Origin: Dechloromonas sp. H13
GTDB taxonomy: Bacteria; Pseudomonadota; Gammaproteobacteria; Burkholderiales; Rhodocyclaceae
Reading direction: 5' to 3'
DNA length: 64,000 nucleotides
NCBI RefSeq assembly: GCF_009469615.1
Contig: NZ_SSXX01000007.1
Location: 124,001 to 188,000 of the forward strand
The position numbers and the translations under genes were made by a program. The notes under the pieces were generated by a model. It ran no database searches and was not told the DNA's origin. It was given only the letters and a program-made list of their open reading frames with translations. Of this stretch, positions 16,006 through 21,554 are shown piece after piece (position 1 is the first letter of the stretch; every line of letters begins with the position of its first letter).

Positions 16006-16836
16006 ATGGCCACCTATGCGATCGGCGACATCCAGGGCTGCTACGACTCGCTGCGCCGGCTGCTCGACCAGTGCGCCTTCGATCCGGTGCACGACAGCCT
16101 GTGGCTGGTCGGCGACCTGGTCAATCGCGGGCCGCAGTCGCTGGAAACGCTGCGCCTGATCAAGTCGCTCGGCCCGGCTGCCCTGACGGTTCTCGGCAAC
16201 CACGACCTGTACCTGCTGATGGTGGCCGAGGGCGGCGCCAAGTTCCGCGGCAAGGACGACACCCTTCAGCCCATCCTCGACGCCGGGGATTGCGGCGAAC
16301 TGCTGGACTGGCTGCGCCGGCAGCCGCTCTGCCACACCGAAGGCGACTACTGCCTGGTGCACGCCGGCCTGTTGCCGCAATGGACAGCCAGCCGCGCCCG
16401 CAAGCTGGCGCGCGAGGTCGAAGCCGAGCTGCAAGGCCCCGGGTACAGCGAATTCGTCATGAACCTGTGGGGCAGTGAACCGGCGGCCTGGTCGGACAAG
16501 CTCAAGGGCTGGCCGCGCCTGCGCGTCATCGTCAATGCCATGACCCGGATGCGCTTCTGCACCCCTGACGGCGTCATGGAACTGAAGACCAAGGGCGAAC
16601 TGGCCAATGCCCCGCCCGGCCACCTGCCCTGGTTCGCGGTGCCCAACCGGAAGAGCGCCGGATCGATCCTCGTCACCGGCCATTGGTCGGCGCTCGGCCT
16701 GCAGATCACGCCGAATCTGCTGGCGCTGGATTCCGGCTGCCTGTGGGGTGGCCACCTGACGGCATTGCGTCTGGAAGACCGGCGGGTGTTTCAGGTGGAT
16801 TGCTCGCCATTGGAAGCTCGGCGGCCAAAGCGATAG
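16006..16836 (+). CDS. apaH: Diadenosine tetraphosphatase, symmetrical
   Basis: A 276-residue metallophosphatase that hydrolyses Ap4A to two ADP. The metal-site motifs are GDIQGCYDSL near the N terminus, GDLVNRGPQSLE and GNHDLYLL, with VHAGLLPQW later. The 3' end overlaps the convergent olsA gene by 131 bp, so the C-terminal 43 codons are shared on opposite strands. The family is usually 270-280 residues, so both ends look genuine. Confidence 0.94.
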   Translation: MATYAIGDIQGCYDSLRRLLDQCAFDPVHDSLWLVGDLVNRGPQSLETLRLIKSLGPAALTVLGNHDLYLLMVAEGGAKFRGKDDTLQPILDAGDCGELLDWLRRQPLCHTEGDYCLVHAGLLPQWTASRARKLAREVEAELQGPGYSEFVMNLWGSEPAAWSDKLKGWPRLRVIVNAMTRMRFCTPDGVMELKTKGELANAPPGHLPWFAVPNRKSAGSILVTGHWSALGLQITPNLLALDSGCLWGGHLTALRLEDRRVFQVDCSPLEARRPKR

Positions 16837-17551
16837 CTTCGCGCGCCTCGGCCGCGACCTGGCGCCGCTCCTCGCCGTTCAGGCCGCGCAGCGGGGTCGT
16901 CACCAGCCTGGCGATCAGGCGCCGGCGACCCAGGATGGCGCGCGTGCATTGCCCGAGCGAGATGTCCCCGTCGTAGCGCGGCGCCAGGCTGCGCCGGCCG
17001 TCCGGCTCCCAGTAGGAAATCGCCGCCGGCAGCACCGGCCGGCCGGCGGCCAGCGCCGGCTGCAGCAGGGCCGCGTGAAAATGCAGCAGGCTGCAGCCGT
17101 CGGTCGTCGTACCTTCCGGAAAGACGGCGACATGCTTGCCCCGTCCCAGGGTTTCGGCGATCAGGGCGTTGATGATCCGCGCGTGGCCGCGGCTGCCACG
17201 ACGCAGGAAGACGGTATCGTTCTGCGCCGCCAGCCAGCCGATCAGCGGCCAGCGGCGGACCTCCTCCTTGGCGACGAAGGCTGCCGGCAGCGCCGCGTTG
17301 ATGACCAGAATGTCGATCCAGGAAACATGGTTGGCAACCAGCAGGACGCCCGGCGCGACATGGGTCAGGTCGGCCTCCAGCTTGATCCCCAGCGTCCCGA
17401 GCACGATCCGCGACCAGCCGGCCTTGAGCCGCAGCCGCGCCGCATCGCCGAGCAGGGGAAAGGCGACGAAGGTGACGACGGCCCCGCCGGCCAGCAGCAG
17501 GCCCAGTCGGCAGATACGAAAAAGACGGAGGATGAGAGGCGTTTCGTTCAG
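16706..17551 (-). CDS. olsA: Lyso-ornithine lipid O-acyltransferase-like (PlsC family), putative OlsA
   Basis: A PlsC-family acyltransferase of about 281 residues. It has a hydrophobic N-terminal helix (ILRLFRICRLGLLLAGGAVV), the HX4D active site in NHVSWIDI and the acyl-acceptor motif FPEGTTTDG. It lies directly after olsB, so it probably adds the second acyl chain to lyso-ornithine lipid. No ATG, GTG or TTG is available between the olsB 3' region and the first helix. The best start is a CTG at 17551 overlapping the olsB TGA (CTGA) with GGGA upstream; this rare start is an inference. The 3' end overlaps apaH by 131 bp. Confidence 0.8.
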   Translation of the reverse strand: MNETPLILRLFRICRLGLLLAGGAVVTFVAFPLLGDAARLRLKAGWSRIVLGTLGIKLEADLTHVAPGVLLVANHVSWIDILVINAALPAAFVAKEEVRRWPLIGWLAAQNDTVFLRRGSRGHARIINALIAETLGRGKHVAVFPEGTTTDGCSLLHFHAALLQPALAAGRPVLPAAISYWEPDGRRSLAPRYDGDISLGQCTRAILGRRRLIARLVTTPLRGLNGEERRQVAAEAREAIALAAELPMASNPPETPAGLPDAMPSGGHPTGSRNPAPADSA

Positions 17552-18306
17552 TCTGCTTGTCCCAGGTAATGCTTGGCATAACGGCTGGCAACCCGGGCCA
17601 TCGGCATGAGGATGGGCAGGTCGGCGGTATTGAAATCGGGATCCCAGGCCGGCTCGCCGCAAATCCAGGCGCCCGCCCGCAGGTACCCCTTGATCAGCGG
17701 CGGCGTCACCGTCGGCCGGTCCTGCTGCAGGGCGGCCAGCGGCAAGGGACAGCGCGGGAAAACGCGGTACTCCTGCGGCCCGAGGTGTCCCGCCAGACGA
17801 TTATACAAGCTGGCCGCGGCGTGCCCGCCGTCGGCCATGCTGATCGAGGCGCAGCCCATCAGGTAGTCGTAGCCCTGCTCGCTCATGTACTGGGCCAGCC
17901 CGGACCACAGCAGGGTAATCGTCGCCCCGGTGCGGTAATCCGGGTGCACGCAGGAGCGGCCGATCTCGACCAGCCGCGGACGCAGGTGCTGCAGGCGGGT
18001 CAGGTCGAACTCGTTTTCCGAGTAATAGCCGATCTGGCGGGCATGTTCCGGCGGCAGGATGCGGTAGGTGCCGACCACCTCGCCGCTTTGCGTGTCGCGC
18101 ACGACGAGGTGCCTGCAGTACGGGTCGTAGATGTCGTGGTCGACACCGGGCGTCCGGCTCGGCAGGTTGGCGCCCATTTCGCCGGCGAAGACCCGGTAAC
18201 GCAGGCGCTGGGCGTCGAGAATCTCGCTTTGCCCGTGGGCGAAGCCGACGGACAGACTATGGCGCTGCGGGCGGCTGCGGCCCGCTTCATTGCGGATATG
18301 TTCCAT
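17548..18306 (-). CDS. olsB: L-ornithine N-alpha-acyltransferase-like (GNAT), putative OlsB
   Basis: A 252-residue GNAT-fold acyltransferase of the OlsB/autoinducer-synthase-like group, which uses 3-hydroxyacyl-ACP to acylate ornithine in the first step of ornithine-lipid synthesis. Landmarks are EILDAQRLRYRVFAGEMGA, VDHDIYDPYCRHLVVRD, VVGTYRILPP and the acyl-donor region VEIGRSCVHPDYRTGATI. The pairing with a PlsC-type gene downstream is the classic olsB-olsA order. The ATG at 18306 has AAGGAG upstream, but that sequence is the 3' arm of a perfect hairpin. Confidence 0.85.
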   Translation of the reverse strand: MEHIRNEAGRSRPQRHSLSVGFAHGQSEILDAQRLRYRVFAGEMGANLPSRTPGVDHDIYDPYCRHLVVRDTQSGEVVGTYRILPPEHARQIGYYSENEFDLTRLQHLRPRLVEIGRSCVHPDYRTGATITLLWSGLAQYMSEQGYDYLMGCASISMADGGHAAASLYNRLAGHLGPQEYRVFPRCPLPLAALQQDRPTVTPPLIKGYLRAGAWICGEPAWDPDFNTADLPILMPMARVASRYAKHYLGQAD

Positions 18307-18307
18307 G

Positions 18308-18337
18308 CTGTTCTCCTTGCGTATCCATGGAGAACAG
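18308..18337 (-). promoter_or_regulatory. Hairpin that would sequester the olsB ribosome-binding site
   Basis: On the minus strand CTGTTCTCC (18337-18329) pairs perfectly with GGAGAACAG (18316-18308) across a 12-base loop. The 3' arm contains the only Shine-Dalgarno of olsB and ends one base before its ATG. As RNA this could act as a thermometer or other translational switch; as DNA it could be an operator. Confidence 0.6.
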
Positions 18338-18400
18338 TGTGGATGACCGTTGTTACGCCCGCGTTGCCCGAAGATGACTGCAGCGTTTCAGAAGTTCGGC

Positions 18401-19336
18401 CTACCAGGGCATCTCGCCGAAGGCCCGCCGATAGATGCCGGCGATTTCCTCGCGGCTCGGCGCATGGCTCTGGCCGCCGCGATGGGCGATCTTGATTGCC
18501 CCCATCACCGCCGCCAGCCGGCCGGTCGTCGACCAGTCTAGGCCATTGGCGATGCCGTAGAGCAGGCCGGCGCGGTAGGCGTCGCCGCAGCCGGTGGGGT
18601 CGACCAGCTGCTCGGCCGCCACGCAGGGGATGTCGATACGCTGGCCGCCGGCGAAGATCGTCGAGCCCTCGCCGCCGCGCGTGACGATCAGCGCCTGCAC
18701 GGCGCCGGCGAGTTGCTCCAGGCTGCGGCCGGTGCGGTCGCTCAGCAGCTTCGCCTCGTAGTCGTTGAAGCAGGCGAAATCAGCCAGCGCCATGAAATCG
18801 AGCAGTTCGTCACCGTTGAACATCGGCAGCCCCTGGCCCGGGTCGAAGATGAACGGCACGCCGGCCGCCGCGAAATCGCGGGCGTGCTGCATCATGCCTT
18901 CGTGCCCGTCCGGGGCGACGATGCCGAGCCTGGCCGTCCTGGCGTGTTCGACCTTGTTCAGGTGCGAGAAGCTCATGGCGCCGGGATGGAAGGCCGTTAT
19001 CTGGTTGTCGTCGAGGTCGGTGGTGATGAAGGCCTGGGCGGTGAAGCTGCCCGGCACGTGGCGCACGTGCGTGCGCGGCAGGCCGAGGCGGTCGAGGCGC
19101 TCGAGGTAGGGCGCCGCGTCGTCGCCGACGGTCGCCATGATCAGCGGTTCGCCGCCGAGCAGCATCAGGTTGTAGGCGATGTTGCCGGCGCAGCCGCCAT
19201 ATTCGCGGCGCATTTCAGGCACCAGGAAGGCGACGTTCAGGATGTGGATCTGCTCGGGCAGGATGTGGTTCTTGAAGCGGTCGGGGAAGACCATGATGTT
19301 GTCGAAGGCGAGCGAACCGCAGATCAGGGTGGACAT
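18401..19336 (-). CDS. PfkB-family carbohydrate/nucleoside kinase
   Basis: A 311-residue ribokinase-fold kinase. It opens MSTLICGSLAFDNIMVFPDRF, has the substrate-side GGCAGNIAYNLMLLGG and the C-terminal PfkB signature DPTGCGDAYRAGLLYG with the catalytic Asp. The sequence resembles bacterial adenosine-kinase-like members, but the substrate cannot be fixed. It is 12 bp downstream of the DUF3426 gene on the same strand. Confidence 0.88.
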   Translation of the reverse strand: MSTLICGSLAFDNIMVFPDRFKNHILPEQIHILNVAFLVPEMRREYGGCAGNIAYNLMLLGGEPLIMATVGDDAAPYLERLDRLGLPRTHVRHVPGSFTAQAFITTDLDDNQITAFHPGAMSFSHLNKVEHARTARLGIVAPDGHEGMMQHARDFAAAGVPFIFDPGQGLPMFNGDELLDFMALADFACFNDYEAKLLSDRTGRSLEQLAGAVQALIVTRGGEGSTIFAGGQRIDIPCVAAEQLVDPTGCGDAYRAGLLYGIANGLDWSTTGRLAAVMGAIKIAHRGGQSHAPSREEIAGIYRRAFGEMPW

Positions 19337-19347
19337 AGGACAGGCAA

Positions 19348-20663
<1,316 letters not shown>

Positions 20664-20664
<1 letters not shown>

Positions 20665-21554
20665 CAGGATTTGACGCCGGCCAGGCATACCCAGTCCTCG
20701 CGCACGCCGGCTACCTGCAGCGGCAGCCACTGCGCGTAGATCGCGATGATTTCGTCGGCCTGCTCGCGCAGGATGCCGGAGAGCGCCAGCCGGCCGCCGG
20801 AACGGACGTGGGCGCAGATGGCCGGCGCCAGCACGCGCAGCGGGTTGGCCAGGATGTTGGCGACGACGAGGTCGTACTCGCCGGCGACCGGCTGCGCCGA
20901 ATCGGCGAACAGCGCATTCACTCCGTTGCGTTCGGCGTTGGCCCGCGCCGCCGCGACCGCCTGCGGGTCGATATCGACCCCGGCGACACTGCCGGCGCCG
21001 AGACGGGCGGCGGCAATGGCCAGGATGCCGGAACCGCAACCGTAGTCGAGCAGGCTGCAGCCGTCATGGACGTTGCGCTCAAGCCATTCCAGACACAGGC
21101 GGGTGGTCGGATGCGACCCGGTGCCGAAGGCCATGCCTGGATCGAGGATCAGGTTGATGGCAGCCGGGTCCGGCAATTCGTGCCACGACGGGACGATCCA
21201 CAAGTGTTCGGAAACGCGGATCGGATCGAACTGCGACTGGGTCAGCTGCACCCAGTTTTGTTCCGCCACCTCTTCGACGGTCCACGCCGGCACGCCGGGC
21301 AGACCGATGGCGGCGCTCGCCTGCGCCAGCAGCGCCGCGACGTCGGCATCCGGCTCGAACAGGGCAACGATTCGCGAATGTGCCCAGCCCGGCGCATTGA
21401 CCGAGCCCGGCTCGCCGAACTGCGGCTTCTCGGCGGCCGTCCCGGCGTCGGCATCCTCGATGCTGGCGGACAGCGCGCCGGCTTCGAGGAGGACATCGCA
21501 CATCGGCTCGGCGTGCGACGCATCGGTGAGAAAACTGACGCTCTGCCAGCCCAT
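20664..21554 (-). CDS. prmA: Ribosomal protein L11 methyltransferase
   Basis: A 296-residue SAM-dependent enzyme that trimethylates ribosomal protein L11. The N-terminal substrate-recognition domain ([11 protein letters not shown] onward) is followed by [22 protein letters not shown] and the SAM motif [20 protein letters not shown]. It sits 3 bp downstream of accC and overlaps the DUF3426 start, continuing the aroQ-accB-accC-prmA operon. Confidence 0.96.

Follow-up and report, generated by a model that had tools for sequence, protein, structure and literature searches.

The window, a 64,000-nt stretch of DNA from Dechloromonas sp. H13, carries on its minus strand a pair of ornithine-lipid genes and, upstream of them, a kinase gene that is read in the same direction:

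16706 to 17551, minus strand: olsA-like acyltransferase gene, 3' of olsB (PF01553; NCBIfam OlsA models below cut-off; start approximate)
17548 to 18306, minus strand: olsB-like ornithine N-acyltransferase gene (PF13444, above cut-off)
18401 to 19336, minus strand: pfkB-family kinase gene, upstream and co-directional, with a gap of 94 nt to olsB; proposed source of read-through RNA

The OlsB-like protein scored 126.9 bits against PF13444 (cut-off 22.4), and 169 and 166 bits against two NCBIfam OlsB models, under their cut-offs of 350 and 320. Azonexus and Dechloromonas were the nearest named relatives found. A consensus scan of positions 17500-19500 returned neither a terminator-like site nor a sigma-70 promoter. 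We note that in many relatives (L006, L131, and L213, for example) a small glycine-zipper gene (PF05433) lies between the pfkB-like kinase gene and olsB; this gene is absent from the window, and the loci that have it stay co-directional. We also note a long hexanucleotide repeat on the minus strand at about 20170-20300, which encodes a Pro-Glu run within a zinc-ribbon/DUF3426 protein (open reading frame 19348-21039; PF13719 and PF11906).

At the olsB start itself, an earlier sequence-only reading had described a perfect 9-bp stem with a 12-base loop, the 3' arm of which carries the olsB Shine-Dalgarno and stops one base short of the ATG. The minus strand reads exactly so, with the following elements in 5' to 3' order:

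18329 to 18337, minus strand: 5' arm CTGTTCTCC, the proposed anti-Shine-Dalgarno in read-through RNA (read from the sequence, and folding)
18317 to 18328, minus strand: 12-nt loop, holding the predicted 5' end of the Pho-promoter mRNA (putative start)
18308 to 18316, minus strand: 3' arm GGAGAACAG, holding the Shine-Dalgarno (sequence and folding)
18304 to 18306, minus strand: olsB start codon ATG, one base 3' of the 3' arm

That reading had overlooked a predicted Pho-box promoter with a -10 and a start that overlap the 5' arm. The 46-nt segment folds into the 9-bp stem, with two weak pairs within its loop; outside the stem, a 4-bp UCCA/UGGA helix extends into the olsB start codon. The folding energy of the segment is -21.7 kcal/mol, compared with -7.0 (sd 2.3) for shuffled sequences (z = -6.3; 0 of 200 shuffles equal), and p = 0.010 when shuffling is confined to the 5' portion of the leader. 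As a reference set we used 289 starts of the same genome, defined as ATG codons with a clear Shine-Dalgarno and drawn from 752 called genes on about 864 kb. The olsB stem score of 23 is tied second in this set, in which three starts reach 23 and the 99th percentile is 21.2. Predicted structure and covariation both indicate that the helix buries the Shine-Dalgarno, with base pairing of the Shine-Dalgarno or the start codon in the long RNA.

Conservation and covariation of the pairing

We collected olsB-like matches from 81 of 100 relatives and, across the order, from 297 of 399 genomes. With partial olsB hits excluded, and once identical leaders and loci short of upstream DNA had been taken out, 236 loci gave 185 distinct leaders under 87 genus labels; the labels of the named loci and the placing of loci in the window's family follow our own grouping. 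In the window's genus, the fold z-score was below -2 in 57 of 59 distinct leaders, and a contiguous stem score of at least 18 was found in 50 of 59. Outside this genus, z was below -2 in 69 of 126 leaders, representing 55 of 86 genus labels. Leader-wise shuffles of all 185 gave p <= 0.01 in 58 and p <= 0.05 in 94. The stems of other genera sit in the same place with unrelated arm sequences, and the loop varies in both length and sequence, save for an A-rich 3' edge. By sequence comparison, then, similar layouts occur in many related bacteria, with stems co-located across many genera of the order. In part of the window's genus (loci L020, L024, L037, and L091) the olsB stem continues through the start codon and reaches 15-19 bp with no mismatch, some of the pairs being G-U.

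The sequence-only reading had proposed a search for compensatory changes in related genomes, and this search favors the pairing. In a genus alignment with 50 distinct rows, both-side changes occurred in 41 cells, compared with 18.5 (sd 3.4) expected from shuffling (0 of 500 shuffles as high), and at least one such change was seen in 6 of 17 pairs (3 of 500 shuffles as high). The proportion of cells that pair was 78.5%, against 75.0% (sd 0.4) in shuffled alignments and 34-47% with slid partners. The covariation takes in pairs that adjoin the -10 (columns 9-11 of the alignment).

Swaps between genera agree with this result. We scored the pairing of a fixed 9 nt after the -10 with a fixed 18 nt before the start codon, either native or genus-swapped, in 182 of the 185 leaders, leaving out three with a weak register. 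Outside the window's genus (123 leaders, 84 genera), the native score was 13.38 and the swapped score 10.12 (sd 0.23), with 0 of 1,000 swaps as high. A held-out set of 40 further leaders from 17 genera, fetched afterwards, gave 12.89 native and 9.89 swapped (sd 0.55), again with 0 of 1,000 as high. Because the swaps keep the composition and the conservation of both segments, the native excess is covariation and no pyrimidine/purine artefact. We conclude that the hairpin is real and that its pairing is under selection.

A predicted Pho-box promoter in register with the hairpin

We scored each leader for a register consisting of a -10 preceded by three heptamers of the Pho type (xxGTMAY) at a period of 11. 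In the window, the register falls as follows:

18374 to 18380, minus strand: Pho heptamer 1, CAGTCAT (Pho scoring)
18363 to 18369, minus strand: Pho heptamer 2, GGGCAAC (Pho scoring)
18352 to 18358, minus strand: Pho heptamer 3, GCGTAAC (Pho scoring)
18336 to 18341, minus strand: predicted -10, CACACT, 10 nt after the last Pho heptamer; degenerate
18328 to 18329, minus strand: predicted transcription start, at the arm/loop boundary, 7-8 nt past the last -10 base

The repeated heptamers, their period of 11 bp, and the position of the -10, some 10 nt downstream, are thus those of a Pho-box promoter, with PhoB binding itself predicted. When the spacer was left free between 4 and 16 nt, 10 nt was chosen by 77 of about 87 genus weights; the Pho box of Escherichia coli phoA has the same 10-nt spacing to its -10. 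Across the leaders, position 2 of the -10 is A at a frequency of 0.98 and position 6 is T at 1.00, values that are high partly because the score rewards both. The -10 is nearer TANNNT in most other genera and poor in the window's genus (CAnnCT), which makes the start less certain there than in the other genera.

We then located the 5' arm relative to the last base of the -10 in the 104 leaders with a stem score of at least 18. The arm begins at -1/0 in 61 of these and ends at +7/+8 in 60, or at +5 to +10 in 92. Purine frequency after the -10 steps up from 0.16 at +6 to 0.48 at +7. Together, the arm ends and the purine step indicate that the predicted start usually lies at the end of the 5' arm; the predicted leader length is 19-29 nt in 177 of 185. 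In 5 of the 104 strong-stem leaders (L060, L157, L175, L214, and L222) the 5' arm lies entirely upstream of the predicted -10, and a hairpin of this kind could be formed by read-through RNA only.

Pho boxes before olsB have been predicted earlier in Burkholderia sensu lato (PMC7814305) and in Acinetobacter (PMC11828411). The Pho boxes of these published PhoB-regulated olsB promoters are like those described here, and the word "hairpin" is absent from the main texts of both papers.

Transcript origin as the proposed switch

We propose, with a probability of roughly 0.6, that the element acts on read-through RNA as a start-gated silencer. Overlying the hairpin would be a promoter of the PhoB type, made up of three heptamers repeated every 11 bp, a spacer of 10 nt, and a -10, such that the 5' arm occupies the stretch from the -10 to the putative transcription start, with the 3' arm forming the olsB Shine-Dalgarno region. 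RNA reading through from the upstream gene, where it is made, would contain both arms and would fold, hiding the ribosome-binding site and leaving olsB untranslated. RNA from the Pho promoter would start at the arm/loop boundary and lack nearly all of the 5' arm, and its site would be exposed and translated. Ornithine-lipid synthesis would in this way stay coupled to phosphate starvation, even with the upstream gene transcribed at other times. With the Pho promoter as the only origin of transcripts, the 5' arm would for the most part have no chance to pair with the 3' arm; RNA from upstream would have both. RNA folding at 37 °C is consistent with this proposal, the predicted unpaired probability of the window's GGAG being 0.00 in the long RNA versus 0.83 in an RNA that begins at 18328. 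For the 111 leaders with a co-directional upstream gene, the median was 0.25 in long and 0.56 in short RNA; for 27 divergent leaders, the values were 0.32 and 0.51.

If read-through silencing operates, hairpins should be stronger downstream of a co-directional gene. Orientation was called from cross-genome protein support, from Pfam for 30 candidate proteins, and from a hand-written list for 52 loci that drew on these (4 undecided); the 47 of 185 leaders without a call were excluded from the orientation tests. In the first set, 54 co-directional genera had a median fold z of -2.80, with 70% below -2, and 19 divergent genera had a median of -0.48, with 21% below -2 (p = 2.7e-4; like the tests below, without phylogenetic correction). 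For the held-out leaders, orientation was set before folding, and L318 had too little flank for a call. The 35 co-directional loci of this set had a median of -2.32 (57% below -2), and the divergent loci, only four in number, a median of -0.75 (25%). Over both sets, an upstream gene that reads toward olsB goes with a stronger hairpin: the medians of genus-mean fold z are -2.60 for 57 co-directional and -0.30 for 21 divergent genera, and z is below -2 in 65% versus 24% (Mann-Whitney p = 8e-5, kinship ignored). At the family level p = 0.033, kinship again ignored, and all four families with both contexts differ as expected, the divergent side being a single locus in two of them. There are exceptions in both directions: about 35% of co-directional genera have no clear hairpin and 24% of divergent genera have one. 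Many co-directional loci lack a hairpin (L180, L214, L219, and L223, for example), and strong hairpins are retained at some divergent loci (L135, L147, L172, L173, and L323). Divergent leaders also pair above their swaps (11.28 versus 9.33; 0 of 1,000 as high). This excess, together with their difference between long and short RNA, suggests that a divergent neighbor leaves some selection in place.

The sequence-only reading had counted a transcription start inside the hairpin, which would keep the 5' arm out of the RNA, as evidence against control by the hairpin. The promoter register does predict such a start, but the pairing is selected all the same; read-through silencing would explain both. 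Control is likely to be by transcript origin rather than by temperature, a protein, or a ligand. The last three, close to what that reading had suggested for olsB translation, drew no support from our analysis, in which the long RNA is predicted to remain paired at the GGAG at 65 °C, the loop is variable, and Rfam matches are sub-threshold. As an RNA thermometer (ROSE, FourU) the leader was rejected, the predicted unpaired probability of GGAG in the long RNA being 0.000 at 37 °C and 0.007 at 65 °C. A riboswitch or other known leader was also rejected: an Rfam search with an E limit of 10 returned four matches at chance level (E 6.3-7.7), far under gathering scores, and with the loop varying outside its A-rich 3' edge no conserved aptamer is apparent. 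A protein or small-RNA partner would be compatible with all of these results.

We weighed four other explanations against the start-gated silencer. The first is conventional leader control, in which the Pho transcript starts 5' of the arm and the whole hairpin is opened by temperature, a protein, a ligand, or a small RNA. The strong helix and the buried Shine-Dalgarno suit this explanation, as do the 15-19 bp helices over the start codon in the four loci named above and the lack, in the consensus scan, of a standard promoter that would fix the start. However, the 10-nt spacer and the purine step at +7 put the start at the arm end, the loop is unconserved bar its A-rich 3' edge, no Rfam match comes near a gathering score, and the long RNA is predicted to be closed at 65 °C; the hairpin is probably not a leader switch of this usual kind, and we consider the explanation improbable. 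The second, to which we give the same low weight, places the start a few bases inside the arm, so that a short 5'-terminal stem tunes mRNA decay or translation without any read-through. Start positions at bacterial promoters vary by 1-2 nt, and the arm ends at or beyond +8 in 51 of 104 leaders, which would allow a few 5' bases to pair. Few pairs would be left, yet the covariation includes pairs beside the -10, and the effect of upstream gene orientation would go unexplained.

Less probable again is a DNA-level function, with the inverted repeat serving as the operator of a dimeric repressor across the transcription start. A perfect inverted repeat over the predicted start does fit the shape of an operator, and the same core arms recur once in the same genome, in the interval that separates an MFS gene from the divergent gene for a LysR-type regulator. 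Between genera, however, the arms differ while their pairing is kept and loop length varies, changes that a single regulator would not track. Finally, a compositional artefact, with a pyrimidine-rich discriminator opposite a purine-rich Shine-Dalgarno, would account for the score of about 10 that swapped pairs reach already, but it is contradicted by the swap tests, in which native pairs score about 14 s.d. higher than swapped ones and the held-out leaders again show a native excess, and we regard it as very improbable.

The layout at pstS, known relatives, and other starts

The pstS gene of the same genome has the same layout. Its hairpin is a 9-bp version of the olsB plan, with a -10 of TAACCT, an arm CCTGCACAT that begins within this -10, and a partner ATGTGCAGG that overlaps AGGAG. 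Covariation is modest in the pstS leaders of the genus (30 distinct; 2 of 32 loci were dropped for having no matching promoter and start): the native score was 18.60 and the swapped score 17.50 (sd 0.39), with 14 of 2,000 swaps as high, and fold z was below -2 in 63%. In pstS leaders such as L287, an inner GTTG/CAAC-like helix would persist in Pho-started RNA. Among the 289 reference starts, olsB and pstS have the two highest Pho registers and are two of the three starts with a stem score of at least 23. They are also the only ones with a stem of at least 20 among the top 14 Pho registers; the stems of the remaining 12 range from 6 to 18, and a regulon-wide design is thus not supported by these data. 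The lower registers among the 14 may not be Pho promoters. The PhoX locus of this genome holds no pair of perfect Pho heptamers.

The transposase leaders of IS10 and IS50 block translation of RNA that enters from outside. They resemble the olsB leader in that a buried start signal guards against impinging transcription; unlike olsB, they belong to mobile elements and are not known to have a regulated promoter over the arm. The closest system found is gene e of phage T4, as described in PMC3014915. Its longer early transcripts form a helix in which the ribosome-binding site is concealed. The late promoters are located within the DNA for the 5' strand of this helix, so that their transcripts lack this strand and are translated; longer, upstream-started transcripts of T4 soc, 49, and I-TevI also fold with the ribosome-binding site hidden (PMC3014915). 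The logic of a promoter within the 5' strand of the hairpin is the same, but for olsB and pstS it is predicted from sequence alone, the genes are chromosomal with a starvation-type promoter and no phage timing circuit, and the olsB hairpin has persisted through sequence turnover in many genera of one bacterial order. No chromosomal promoter-in-hairpin silencer is named in titles or abstract openings of the open-licence literature, among the matches listed for a few search terms.

It is conceivable, and we offer it tentatively, that an anti-Shine-Dalgarno is a common feature of the untranscribed stretch from -10 to start in the starvation promoters of bacterial chromosomes, as a general layer of control by which translation depends on the promoter of origin. 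The olsB and pstS genes of Burkholderiales would be two cases, and non-Pho genes, for example the MFS gene in L237, might be others. If the read-through silencer proposed here is real, chromosomal genes could block leaky transcription by a neighbor from being expressed, compactly and without a terminator, and the stretch from -10 to start, usually seen as promoter DNA only, would inform the fate of the neighbor's RNA. Genes insensitive to read-through RNA could then be forecast from sequence, operon calls would need caution where they take co-transcription to mean co-expression, and synthetic circuits would gain a small insulating part.

The MFS gene is the one further place in the genome where the core olsB arm pair occurs. 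It encodes a transporter (PF06779, PF07690; L237 1495-1528, which is C15:393861-393888 of the same genome), and the divergent LysR-type regulator beside it matches PF00126 and PF03466. The pair GTTCTCC/GGAGAAC buries the Shine-Dalgarno of the MFS gene, and by eye a -10-like TATCGT lies directly 5' of the arm, with no Pho box apparent. Its divergent neighbor counts against the read-through reading at this site. The strongest stem among the 289 starts, at C6:328020 (L282, about 8020), has 10 bp (TGCAGGCTTC/GAGGCCTGCA) and, by eye, a -10-like TAGACT upstream.
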